Part shown: positions 13,450 to 45,171 of the stretch, piece by piece | Position numbering within the stretch: the stretch's first letter is position 1 | Layout: each line of letters begins with the position of its first letter | Assembly: GCA_011364925.1 (NCBI GenBank) | Contig: RDOA01000009.1 | Span: 1-64,000 of the forward strand | Direction of reading: 5' to 3' | Source of the DNA: Promethearchaeota archaeon | GTDB lineage: Archaea > Asgardarchaeota > Lokiarchaeia > Sigyniarchaeales > SOKP01 | Length of the DNA: 64,000 bases | Program-made: the position numbers and the translations under genes | Notes under the pieces: model-generated | Told to the model about the DNA's origin: nothing | Seen by the model: only the letters and a program-made list of their open reading frames with translations | Database searches by the model: none

Positions 13450-14937
13450 CTAATAGTGAGGATACCTAAGATTTTCGGTTTTTTTCTCATCGATATGTTT
13501 AGTACATTTGGTTTTCTTTGATTTGGCGATCTTTTCAAGGAGTGGTAATCCCGGTTTAACATCAGCTAATGGTTTTGATTCGATTAAATCGTTCTCTATT
13601 AGACTTTGATATAGTTCTTTTCCAGTTTCAGTTCTAATAAGCACGGAATTCCATCCGGAGGGAGATCCTATAGACCCTATTGAAATGTCAGCAGATTCGG
13701 AAGTTAAGTCAAAGCAAACTTCACAGTCTCCTCGAGCTAAATGTCCAATCTCCTTAATTGGAACTGTTAATTCTTCACCAGAATTTGAATAGACAAAAAA
13801 CTTGCCTTTATTGATATTGGTTTTTTTTACATCCTTTACATCTACTTTTAGAGCTTCACAGATTTTTACGAAGGATTCATATGAAAAAGACTCCATGCAA
13901 AAGATCCCAATACGATATTTAATTTGATTTAGCGATGGTATTCCAATGTTGTAAATTGAAGATTTTAGGAGCGCTTGCATCATGCAAGGAACTCCTACAA
14001 CAGCGAGATTTGAAGGACTTTTATTAAGATCTTTTAAAATTTTTAAATTAGGGTTACTTACGTATTTAGTCCCTGTAGTTGAGAGTACATCTTCTTTTTT
14101 CTGAAGGATTATTGGTTCTGGTCTCCAAGGAGTTCTACTCATTTTCGCTCCTAAAGCCTTATCAATATTCTTAGAATCAAAAAGGTAATATAAACATGTG
14201 CTTGTAATTCCTCCATCCTGACAAGTTTCCGCTATTTCGGATAATTTAGTTCGAGCAGAATACGCTTCTAAGTAATGACCTACTTGCGAATAATTTTTTA
14301 TTTCTGAAGCTTGATCTTGGGTCATGTTTAAAACAGTCACCGGCAAATAGCTACGAGGACATACAAAATAACATAGACCACATCTGATACACTTGTCCTC
14401 ATCAATTTTTCCGAAACCATTATATATCTCTAAGCAATTAACGGGACAAATACCGGCGCATAATCCACATCCAGAGCAATTATGAGTTTCAAAAATAGTT
14501 TTAACTGGCTCATAAATTGATTTTACTCTTGACGGATCACCATCAAATTTCACAATATCTAAATCCTTAAAGGAACTTGATTCAGGTGTGTTTTCATCCC
14601 CTTCAATTATATCATAAATTTCATTCACTCCAATTAGCTTCTCGTTTTTCAATAATTCTAATAGGCTTAATGTCTTTCTAATTTCAATAGAATTTTCTTC
14701 GGAGAATTTTCTAATTGTTTTGAAATTATTAGAATTAGATAAATAATTGAAAAGTTTATATTTCAAGAGTTCTTCATCGAACATTTTAAACAACATTTCA
14801 TCATATTGTTCCTCGTTGTAAATCCCAGAACCCAAAATTTCCTTTTTTGCGTCAATTAATACGCGGATTCGATACGAATCTACAGTAATGGCTATTGCAT
14901 TTAAGCCTTCCTTTGTAATTTTAAGTTTAGAACTCAT
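13450..14937 (-). CDS. FrhB/FdhB-like F420-dependent oxidoreductase subunit with ferredoxin domain
   Basis: This 495-residue protein combines an N-terminal helical region of about 130 residues, a dicluster ferredoxin ('CSGCGLCAGICPVNC', then 'CIRCGLCYFVCP') and a C-terminal FrhB-type domain ('ALGAKMSRTPWRPEPI', 'TGTKYVSNP', 'VGVPCMMQAL', 'FCMESFSYESF', 'ARGDCEVCFDLTSESADISIGS'). The FrhB family binds FAD and FeS clusters and exchanges hydride with coenzyme F420. It follows mvhD and hdrA, 119 bp after mvhD, with the SECIS candidate in the gap. It probably feeds electrons from F420H2 into, or takes them from, HdrA. No in-frame TGA is present here. Confidence 0.85.
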   Translation of the reverse strand: MSSKLKITKEGLNAIAITVDSYRIRVLIDAKKEILGSGIYNEEQYDEMLFKMFDEELLKYKLFNYLSNSNNFKTIRKFSEENSIEIRKTLSLLELLKNEKLIGVNEIYDIIEGDENTPESSSFKDLDIVKFDGDPSRVKSIYEPVKTIFETHNCSGCGLCAGICPVNCLEIYNGFGKIDEDKCIRCGLCYFVCPRSYLPVTVLNMTQDQASEIKNYSQVGHYLEAYSARTKLSEIAETCQDGGITSTCLYYLFDSKNIDKALGAKMSRTPWRPEPIILQKKEDVLSTTGTKYVSNPNLKILKDLNKSPSNLAVVGVPCMMQALLKSSIYNIGIPSLNQIKYRIGIFCMESFSYESFVKICEALKVDVKDVKKTNINKGKFFVYSNSGEELTVPIKEIGHLARGDCEVCFDLTSESADISIGSIGSPSGWNSVLIRTETGKELYQSLIENDLIESKPLADVKPGLPLLEKIAKSKKTKCTKHIDEKKTENLRYPHY

Positions 14938-14970
14938 TTTTATTTAACATTAGGTTGTTTTAATATTATA

Positions 14971-15004
14971 ACTAACACTCCGAAAACTCAGGCTGTGAGT
15001 TAGT
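14971..15004 (-). repeat. Inverted repeat overlapping the 3' side of the SECIS candidate
   Basis: ACTAAC (14971-14976) and GTTAGT (14999-15004) can pair in the minus-strand RNA, enclosing a smaller CTCA/TGAG hairpin followed by four U residues. The outer repeat uses the same bases as helix I of the SECIS candidate, so the two folds would exclude each other. It could be an attenuator or simply a chance repeat. Confidence 0.35.
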
Positions 15005-15046
15005 CGCCTTCTAACTACAGTTTTTTAGAAGGGTCATCCTAATTCG
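14997..15046 (-). promoter_or_regulatory. SECIS-like element with kink-turn core, in mvhD 3' UTR
   Basis: Read on the minus strand, helix I (TTAG/CTAA; 15042-15039 with 15003-15000) leads to ATGA (15037-15034), then helix II CCTTCTAA/TTAGAAGG (15032-15025 with 15014-15007), an A-rich apical loop, and CGA (15006-15004). The GA of ATGA faces the GA of CGA as tandem G.A/A.G pairs after a three-base bulge: a textbook kink-turn. Unpaired A residues lie 10-13 bases beyond the quartet, as in eukaryotic SECIS elements. Archaeal SECIS elements normally sit in 3' UTRs. It starts about 10 bases after the mvhD stop and presumably serves the five TGA codons of mvhD and hdrA. Confidence 0.75.
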
Positions 15047-15056
15047 GATTAATTTT

Positions 15057-15467
15057 TTATTTTGGTAGAGGAGGGAGTTGTTCTACTTTACGGGTAATAT
15101 CTTCCACTGATTTAATGAACTTTTCGACTTCAGCCGCCGAGCAGAAATATTGTTGAATTCGTTCTTCTTCTAGACCTAAGTGTTTGAAGAGTCTTTTTAA
15201 AAATTTTACATGCTCAAACGTGTTCGTATTTCCATTTCCAAATTCGCACTCACCTTCTTTTCAAGAAATAATGGCTACTCCGTCTGCCCCATTTAAAAAA
15301 CTCTCCATTATTAAATGTATTCCAACTCTTCCCGTACATCTTACTCTAATCAGGTGAAAATTAGTAGAATAAGATTTTCTCGTGGTACCCGTCAGATCAG
15401 CTGCTGAATAACCTCATTTTTCGCAGCCAAAGGCTATAATTTTACGATCTTTTATGTTTTCTGACAT
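15057..15467 (-). CDS. mvhD: MvhD/VhuD-like electron-transfer protein with two selenocysteines
   Basis: A 136-codon gene from ATG 15467 to TAA 15057-15059, interrupted only by TGA at 15414-15416 (residue 18) and 15261-15263 (residue 69). Both lie at conserved Cys positions: 'CEK-U-GYSAADL' matches the family motif CxxC before 'YAGADLAG', and 'IIS-U-KEGEC' matches 'GCxxGDC'. The intervening 'LIRVRCTGRVGIHLIMESFLNGADGVAI' pattern (split: RVRCTGRVG, FLNGADGVAI) is diagnostic. The family holds a [2Fe-2S] centre and passes electrons from a hydrogenase or formate dehydrogenase to HdrA. It lies 21 bp after hdrA with SECIS candidate just downstream. VhuD-type selenoproteins are known in methanogens. 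Confidence 0.9.
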
Positions 15468-15488
15468 AATTTATTTTCTCGTGTTTTT

Positions 15489-17489
15489 CTAATTTTCCAT
15501 TTTAGTAGATTTTTTTGGAATGTTTTCAATTTCAGCTTTACCGATTCCCTTGATTTCAGCTTCGAATTGATTGTCTCGATAGTATTTTAAATCAATTGCC
15601 CTCGCAGGGCATGAGGATACACAAACTCCACATCCTTTACATTTTAGCTCGTTTACTATTGCTATATTGTCTTCACCAACACTAATTGCTTCATACTCAC
15701 ATAGTTTTTCGCATCTATGACAGCCCAAACATAGATTCTCATCAACTTCTGCGATAATTAATTCTTGTGTAATAGTTTTATGGGAAAGTAAGGCTGCAGC
15801 CTTACTTGCAGCTGCTAACGCTGTAGAAACGGAATAAGGAATGTTTTTTGGACCGGCAGCGCTTCCACAGATATAAATACCCATGTTTTTTGTCTCTTGA
15901 GGTTTCAAGCACCCATGGATTTCGGTTAAGAAGCCGTTCGGACCCTTACTTAAACCTAAAACTTCGATTGCCTCCATGGTTCCTTTCGAAGGGTTCATTC
16001 CTGTTGACAATACTACTAGATCTGCTTTTATTTTAGTTAATTCTCCAGTAAGAGAAGAATATGCTCGTACCATTAAATTGTGATTTTCGTCCTCAATAAC
16101 TTCTCCTACTTTTCCCCTAATCATTCTAACATCCGCTTCTCTAATTTTTCTATAATATTCCTCGTTACCTTTATCTGTAGTTCTAATGTCGATATAAAAA
16201 ATTATAACATCCATTTCCGGGTATTCTTGTTTCAATAATTGAGCATTCTTAAGCGCTACATTACAACATACCATAGAGCAGTAGGGATTGGCTTTTAAAT
16301 CTCTAGAACCTACACACTGGATCATGACGACAGTTTTTGGCGTTTTTCCATCAGACATTCTATATATATGGCCCCCAGTTGGTCCTATAGGACTTAACAT
16401 GCTTTCTAGTTCAATTTGAGTGATGACATTTGGGTAGATCCCGTAATTATATTCGTTAGTCTCGATTATTGGATACTCATCATATCCCGTTGCAACAATT
16501 ACAGCACCCACTTTAACTTCGATTGTTTCGGGTTCTTGTTCAAATTTAATAGCTTCCGCAGGACACACGCGTTCTCAACTTTTACAATCAATACAGACAC
16601 TTTTATCCATTACTGCATATTTTGGAACTGCTTGGGGAAACGGAATATAAATCGCTCCTCTTTCGCCAATTCCGTTATAAAATTCATTTGGCACCTTTAT
16701 CGGACAGTTTTCAGTACATAATCCACATCCTGTGCATTTGCTTTCATCAACATACCTTGGATTTTTACGGATTTTAACTTTATAATCACCTGTAATACCA
16801 CTAAACCCGATTACATCACTATACGTCAGTAATGTTATGTTAGGATGCTTCGACGCGTTAACCATTATGGGAGCAAGAACTCATATACCACAATCATCAG
16901 TGGGATATATCCGATCTAATTGAGCCATTTTTCCTCCTACAGTAGCTGCTTTTTCCACCAAATACACTTGTATTCCGTGATCTGCCAAATCTAATGCTGC
17001 GTTCATCCCAGCAATTCCAGCCCCCACGATTAAAGCAGCTCTTTCAACAGGAATCTCTTTATAAGGGACGCTCTCCAATTCTCTTGCTCTGTTTATGCCG
17101 GCTCGAATTAAACGTTTTGCTTTTTCTGTAGCATGTTCCATGTCTCCTTGATGAACAAAAGAGCATTGTTCTCGTAAATTTACCATTTCAAAATAGTACG
17201 GACTTAAACCTGCTTCTTTTAACACGGCTCTATATGTGGGTTCGTGAATCTTAGGAGTGCAAGCTGCAACAACAATTCTGTTCAAACTTAATTCTAATAT
17301 ATCGTTTTTAATGATTTGTTGTCCAGGATCGCTACAAGTAAAATTATTTGTTCTTGCTATAACTACATTAGGTAATGGTTCAACAAAATCTCTAACAGCA
17401 TCGCAATCAAGGTGAGCTCCAATATTAACACCTCATCTACACACATAAACTCCTATTCTTATTTCGTCAATGGTCTGCTTTTCAGACAA
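15489..17489 (-). CDS. hdrA: Heterodisulfide reductase subunit A with three selenocysteines
   Basis: A 666-codon gene from TTG 17489 to TAG 15489-15491. HdrA binds FAD ('VGAGIAG', 156-161) and several [4Fe-4S] clusters, and splits electrons from a low-potential and a high-potential path. The frame is broken only by TGA at 17433-17435 (residue 19, 'VCR-U-GVNI', normally CxCG), 16881-16883 (residue 203, 'DDCGI-U-VLAP', the site known as Sec in some methanogens) and 16575-16577 (residue 305, 'CIDCKS-U-ERVCP', a ferredoxin cluster ligand). All three replace cysteine. A C-terminal dicluster ferredoxin keeps normal Cys. TTG lies five bases after AGGTGA. No hdrB or hdrC is in the window. The gene would be called three pseudogene pieces by routine annotation. 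Confidence 0.93.
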
Positions 17490-45066: not shown

Positions 45067-45171
45067 CGCAGATGGAGGGATTCGAACCCCCGAGCGCTTA
45101 CGCGCACCGGCTTTAACGGATATAAGGTAATACTCTCGAAGCCGGCGTCTTACCAGCTAGGCTACATCTGC
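45067..45171 (-). tRNA. tRNA-Ser(CGA) with 22-base intron
   Basis: On the minus strand, the acceptor GCAGATG (from 45171) pairs with CATCTGC, followed by discriminator G (45067) and no encoded CCA. The anticodon stem CCGGC/GCCGG encloses TT-CGA-G, then a 22-base insert at 45113-45134, then A: an intron at the canonical 37/38 position. A long variable arm (GCGC-GTAA-GCGC) marks class II, and the T arm has GGTTCGAATCC. Anticodon CGA (45136-45138) reads UCG. G73 is typical of serine tRNAs. Confidence 0.93.

Follow-up and report, generated by a model that had tools for sequence, protein, structure and literature searches.

A selenocysteine (Sec) insertion (SECIS) element that folds as a three-way junction very probably serves the hdrA–mvhD transcript of this Lokiarchaeial genome, as judged from evidence that is computational throughout. 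The window, i.e., the whole 64,000-nucleotide stretch of DNA that was analyzed, carries hdrA and mvhD with a gap of only 21 nt between them. A single element lies 3' of both genes, with five UGA codons upstream in total, and the start codon of the downstream gene (13450-14937) is only ~40 nt past the outer stem, P1. The genes and the parts of the element are listed here; A2 and the selD set are alignments of relatives described below.

15489..17489, minus strand: hdrA, in-frame UGA codons at 17435-17433, 16883-16881, and 16577-16575; Pfam Fer4 and FAD domains
15057..15467, minus strand: mvhD/frhD (FlpD family), in-frame UGA codons at 15416-15414 and 15263-15261; Pfam FlpD E 2.6e-39
15043..15048, minus strand: P1 5' strand UCCGAA, outer closing stem, partner 14979-14984; double changes at 5/5 pairs (A2) and 4/5 (selD); found by unguided RNAalifold
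15039..15042, minus strand: kink-turn collar 5' strand UUAG (helix I of the preliminary description); 1-5 bp retained, mean 2.5 versus 0.36 in shuffles
15034..15038, minus strand: bulge GAU (15038-15036) plus GA; AUGA core at 15037-15034, invariant in 48 orthologues
15025..15032, minus strand: P2 5' strand CCUUCUAA; double changes at 8/8 pairs
15015..15024, minus strand: apical loop AAAACUGUAG, 10 nt, with leading unpaired A's; AA opens the apical loop in 78/78 elements
15007..15014, minus strand: P2 3' strand UUAGAAGG; double changes at 8/8 pairs
15004..15006, minus strand: CGA opposite AUGA; in most orthologues AA replaces GA
15000..15003, minus strand: collar 3' strand CUAA, whose last two A's can pair in P3 instead
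14985..15001, minus strand: P3 hairpin AACUCA-CAGCC-UGAGUU, loop GC at 14993-14992; double changes at 4/5 pairs; GC in 70/78 loops
14979..14984, minus strand: P1 3' strand UUCGGA, on the same basis as the P1 5' strand

The conserved element spans ~15048 to 14979. The preliminary description of this DNA had placed a eukaryote-like kink-turn SECIS at 14997-15046; the element does reside there, but that range is too short. The core is exactly as it was described: AUGA, a facing CGA, a three-base bulge, an 8-bp stem, and unpaired A's 10 nt further on are all present. Specifically, the first unpaired A of the apical loop is 15024, 10 nt past AUGA on the minus strand. At the level of sequence, the kink-turn is recognizable by its GAU bulge, GA/GA, a collar of 1-5 bp, and P2. 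Published type I eSECIS-like elements have a 5'-GA_[G/A]A-3' core preceded by AU, an upper stem of 7-15 bp, an apical loop of 8-20 nt, and a position downstream of a UGA-containing selenoprotein gene. The window copy possesses that core with its AU, a stem of 8 bp, a loop of 10 nt, and a location downstream of hdrA (three UGA) and mvhD (two UGA).

The nearest relatives of the window are metagenome-assembled genomes of Lokiarchaeota. Relatives were gathered from mvhD orthologues and paralogues, selD, and hydrogenase and peroxiredoxin-like genes. Alignment A1 contains 48 distinct mvhD orthologue sequences aligned by MAFFT. Alignment A2 contains paralogues, vhuU, and others aligned by covariance model; it is fitted to the structure and so biased towards P1, P2, and P3. 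The selD sequences were aligned separately, by MAFFT alone. Across A1, double-sided changes occur at 8/8 pairs of P2 and at 4/5 pairs of P3 (columns 58-62 with 68-72). On four of five measures the A1 structure outscores each of 500 shuffles. Its covariation score, its number of double-sided changes, and its paired percentage also exceed those of every slid version. P1 is near-invariant among the orthologues and thus has to be judged on more distant relatives. There, double changes appear at 5/5 P1 pairs in the structure-fitted A2 and at 4/5 in the MAFFT-only selD set, and the P1 sequence is replaced wholly while pairing is kept: UCCGAA/UUCGGA, GGUUACC/GGUAACC, GAUUAUU/AAUAAUC, GACG/CGUC, and UUGGCUU/AAGCCAA.

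The three-way junction is also recovered without alignment. The set comprises 78 nonredundant elements, of common ancestry, that follow mvhD, selD, vhuU, and peroxiredoxin-like genes. For each element, the best P1 plus P3 around the kink-turn hairpin was scored against 200 shuffles of its flanks that preserved dinucleotides and were searched identically. At p<=0.05 per element, P1 and P3 are jointly significant in 62/78, P1 alone in 54/78, and P3 alone in 38/78; the remaining 16/78 are not individually significant in the joint test. P3 starts 1-6 nt past the quartet in 75/78, and its loop, closing bases included, contains GC in 70/78 versus 19% of shuffle hairpins, mostly as UGC or AGC. In selD and hydrogenase genes the kink-turn hairpin was picked partly with P1 and P3 in view, and this choice, together with the common ancestry of the 78, means that combined Fisher values are not readable as probabilities. 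More weight belongs to the recurrence of the structure across gene families that are unrelated. Omitted from the counts were hydrogenase loci with no convincing element (L124, L125, L134, L141, and L144-L146) and three loci at which the parser mispicked the element (L131, L113, and L169); the L131 element is matched by the covariance model.

Could the element be a plain two-stem, eukaryote-like SECIS, in which the kink-turn hairpin and a lower stem suffice and P3 is filler in a long internal loop? The core is indeed the most conserved part, and RNAalifold run on the full 48-row MAFFT alignment returns P2 as its sole helix, because some rows have P1 and P3 displaced by 1-2 columns. Published models (PMC11227280, PMC13188914) likewise need no P3, and P1 would equal the published lower stem. 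Given 33 evenly spaced orthologue rows (32 distinct) and no guidance, RNAalifold returns exactly P1, P2, and P3 under two scoring schemes. Mere filler is at odds with a hairpin that varies in sequence yet stays paired across unrelated gene families, that keeps its position 1-6 nt after the quartet, and that has a GC loop in 70/78 elements. We consider the simpler structure improbable.

Two features of the core depart from the preliminary description. Helices I and II had both been expected to covary in homologous spacers. Helix II does so at 8/8 pairs; helix I does so only partly, with 1-5 bp kept. Its innermost G-C is invariant in the orthologues, and the third pair out (column 16) is broken in 17/48. 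Helix I is best seen as a short kink-turn collar inside the junction. The tandem G.A/A.G pairs, likewise, are genuine in the window copy and 11 others, all of which have G opposite the A of AUGA, but they are a minority state: that base is A in 36/48 orthologues, nearest relatives included, giving A.A. Tandem G.A/A.G pairs are therefore not typical of mvhD. Two variant loci were encountered. An mvhD orthologue (L065, about 420-511 +) has AUGC instead of AUGA and should be without the G.A pair, with P1, P2, and P3 retained. An mvhD relative of another family (L090, 300-384 -) apparently has an element without AUGA that keeps the P2 and P3 hairpins and a UGC loop.

The window copy had been called a clear example, and its fit is good beyond chance: P2 changes doubly at 8/8 pairs, the 119-nt spacer after mvhD folds with z = -2.99 versus shuffles, and R1, the covariance model built from A1, scores the element at 85.9 bits (E 1e-14 in its own genome), the model itself including the window element. 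In the isolated 70 nt, pair probability is 0.73 for P1 and ~0.5 for P3. With 3' context, a lower-energy fold (-22.0 kcal/mol) beats the junction (-17.1 kcal/mol), which we count against the junction, although the energy model has no kink-turn or tertiary terms and the difference is not decisive either way. In the minimum-energy fold, a downstream GUGUUAG takes up the P3 region; this fold was ruled out on the grounds that the GUGUUAG partner is not retained in relatives.

P3 might instead have a different role, for example as a transcription terminator or in translational control of the downstream gene, whose start codon is, after all, only ~40 nt past P1. We regard this as very improbable: P3 follows the kink-turn hairpin at mvhD, selD, vhuU, and two further UGA-containing families irrespective of the neighboring gene, and ten Cys-only mvhD paralogues give no match to the model. 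Least probable of all is that a GAA_A element of the methanogen kind, located elsewhere in the 3' region, does the work; at sequence level, the search already refutes this. While the host is an archaeon and GAA_A-like structures occur in 3.4% of Asgard selenoprotein genes (PMC11227280), the search yielded a single weak match inside the next gene with one G-C pair (~1 expected by chance) and none with two G-C pairs. The preliminary description was correct that the element does not follow the methanogen plan, as GAA_A matches in the 3' region are at chance level.

The three-way junction tracks UGA-containing genes. Searched against its own genome (3.9 Mb, 112 contigs), R1 gives eight matches below E 1e-4. 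Three are at mvhD copies (one being that of the window); the others are at vhuU, at a peroxiredoxin-like selenoprotein gene, at a piece of hdrA close to the end of a contig, and at two loci through which the new families were recognized. Of the 14 mvhD relatives in this genome, four carry two UGA codons; the other 10 are Cys-only, and R1 matches none of these. The fourth UGA-containing mvhD copy (L004) has the junction by parsing and falls below the R1 threshold. Two selD genes with UGA are also present. Across the class, R1 matches at E<=0.01 in 70/83 genomes, and the three-way junction exists outside the class as well, e.g., at L158, L161, and L162.

Several side observations concern these loci. 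At L179 (G000:C98:486-575 +), a SECIS immediately follows a C-terminal fragment of hdrA, and no mvhD intervenes; hdrA can therefore own an element. At L191 and L194, both 3' of the small membrane selenoprotein described below, and at L184 (vhuU), the reading frame terminates at a UGA that is part of the AUGA core or adjoins it. In these three cases the UGA in the SECIS region seems to be a stop codon, though the UGA upstream encodes Sec. Regarding the machinery, no tRNA-Sec match exceeds the Rfam threshold in the window's own genome, which counts against our best explanation. Two sub-threshold matches to the Rfam tRNA-Sec model proved to be tRNA-Gly and tRNA-Leu. Separately, 45067-45171 on the minus strand of the window is a 105-nt Rfam tRNA match that ARAGORN does not call and that is possibly an intron-containing tRNA.

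How might such an element work? The anatomy itself is shown by the analysis, as are its conservation and its link to UGA-containing genes: P1 closes the element, and inside it come a kink-turn arm and then P3. The arm comprises the short collar, the three-base bulge, AUGA facing GA or AA, P2, and the A-led apical loop. An L7Ae-type kink-turn-binding protein, or Asgard EFSec itself, could bind the AUGA core; the RNA-binding domain of SBP2 is a member of the L7Ae kink-turn-binding family. P3 with its GC loop could offer a second contact or set the angle of the kinked arm. Once assembled, the complex would supply Sec-tRNA to ribosomes that have reached any of the five UGA codons in hdrA and mvhD, which lie as far as ~2.4 kb upstream. 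One element would serve both hdrA and mvhD, as also proposed in PMC11227280.

The two loci revealed by the full-form covariance model point to what are apparently new selenoprotein families. The first, L204 (G000:C32:33102-33563 +), is a 154-aa frame with two adjacent UGA codons (HAD-UU-AD), and it has a paralogue at G000:C39:19298-19765 -. Homologues exist in 60/226 Asgard genomes, all within the class. No full-length copy without the UGA codons was found in the 226 genomes; stop-free matches are fragments too short to reach the site. In 18/18 aligned copies, TGA stands at both positions, and seven of the 37 invariant columns lie past UU. Third codon positions vary most after UU, as expected of coding sequence. 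A SECIS-like hairpin lies around or just past the frame end in 17/18 aligned copies, and, with P2 picked without P1/P3 information, 8/16 distinct elements are individually significant.

Pfam and PDB sequence searches with this tandem-UGA protein return nothing. AlphaFold2 models it with pLDDT 85.6 and pTM 0.84, and SAMP1, Urm1, and MoaD are among the top structural matches, with probabilities of 0.93-1.00, E values of only 0.004-0.02, and TM 0.43/0.69 at best. A ubiquitin-like beta-grasp fold is thus likely rather than proven. In the model, UU comes four residues past the last strand, which would place it about where SAMP1, Urm1, and MoaD end in Gly-Gly. As to surroundings, the C39 paralogue has, no more than a few kb away, a frame that looks aldehyde:ferredoxin oxidoreductase-like by eye; the other locus adjoins thioredoxin-like, ferredoxin, and arsenite transporter-like frames.

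The second family, exemplified by L187 (G000:C41:11754-11936 -), is a predicted ~61-aa membrane protein with one hydrophobic segment and GGG-U near its C-terminus; in layout alone it resembles eukaryotic SelK/SelS. It occurs in 17 Lokiarchaeial genomes with one TGA each, and in 14 aligned copies the TGA follows an invariant GGG. The SECIS is directly 3' of the stop in most copies. Support for P1 and P3 is weaker here, with 2/9 individually significant. Neither new family is among those in PMC11227280 or in the available part of PMC13188914.

Asgard SECIS elements are widely taken as a link between archaeal and eukaryotic Sec insertion. If the three-way junction is their true form, two-stem search models are incomplete, minimal constructs trimmed to the kink-turn hairpin might fail on that account, and a helix was lost on the way to the eukaryotic element. 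The full form also supplies a strict, testable search model, one that has yielded two apparent selenoprotein families. We put forward, as less likely than not, a broader picture: the Asgard SECIS would be a three-way-junction RNA with two hands, the kink-turn and the P3 loop, at both of which EFSec or an Asgard-specific factor would read it; eukaryotes would have kept P1 and P2 and lost P3; the methanogen element may be, as a guess, a remnant of P1 and P3; and the full form would mark additional selenoproteins, among them a ubiquitin-like protein that has two neighboring Sec residues at roughly the position of the customary Gly-Gly tail.

Several known systems invite comparison, the closest being Asgard type I eSECIS-like elements (PMC11227280; Mariotti et al. 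2016, as cited there). Asgard eSECIS-like elements accompany 85.1% of Asgard selenoprotein genes, type I being those of hdrA/frhD, with one element common to both genes (Huang et al. 2024, PMC11227280). The first eukaryote-like elements in Lokiarchaeota came from earlier work, Mariotti 2016 among it, as cited in PMC11227280. The preliminary description refers to Mariotti et al. 2016, and the shared hdrA–frhD element is already published too (PMC11227280), so the central claim of that description is not new. Type I elements share with ours AUGA facing GA or AA (AUGA_AA variants being known in Lokiarchaeia; PMC11227280), the 7-15 bp upper stem, the A-rich apical loop, the 3' location, and the sharing by hdrA and frhD. 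They differ in that the form published in PMC11227280 has two stems and an internal loop, whereas here there are P3, with its conserved GC loop, and a closing P1. A 2026 review presents the same two-stem model (PMC13188914). A literature search combining SECIS with three-way junctions found no paper on Asgard elements, and the third hairpin is unmentioned in the consulted passages of the Asgard SECIS papers located by full text.

Methanogen eaSECIS elements share the 3' location and archaeal Sec machinery. Unlike ours, they have a GAA_A bulge with a G-C clamp, and a Lokiarchaeal vhuU element is inactive in Methanococcus maripaludis (PMC11881835). That inactivity counts against our best explanation, though it is compatible with a need for an Asgard factor, and it cannot be enlisted for or against P3.

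For the eukaryotic plan, SECISearch3 gave no significant results on Asgard genes, and SBP2 is reported absent from Asgard genomes (Huang et al., PMC11227280). Rfam finds no SECIS family in the whole window at the gathering threshold, nor by cmscan of 14900-15500 at E<=10. The preliminary description had assigned the element to the eukaryotic plan. As regards the core, that assignment stands: the kink-turn quartet, AUGA, the 8-bp upper stem, and the unpaired A's opening the apical loop are shared. The two-helix plan as a whole does not apply, since the eukaryotic SECIS has two helices, one internal loop, and no third hairpin, whereas here P3 sits within a closing outer stem, no Rfam SECIS matches at E = 10, the quartet is often AUGA_AA, and SBP2 is unreported in Asgard archaea. 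Finally, kink-turns inside three-way junctions, called k-junctions, exist elsewhere, e.g., in the TPP riboswitch. There, in an unrelated RNA and with other partner helices, a kink-turn collar likewise opens into a junction.
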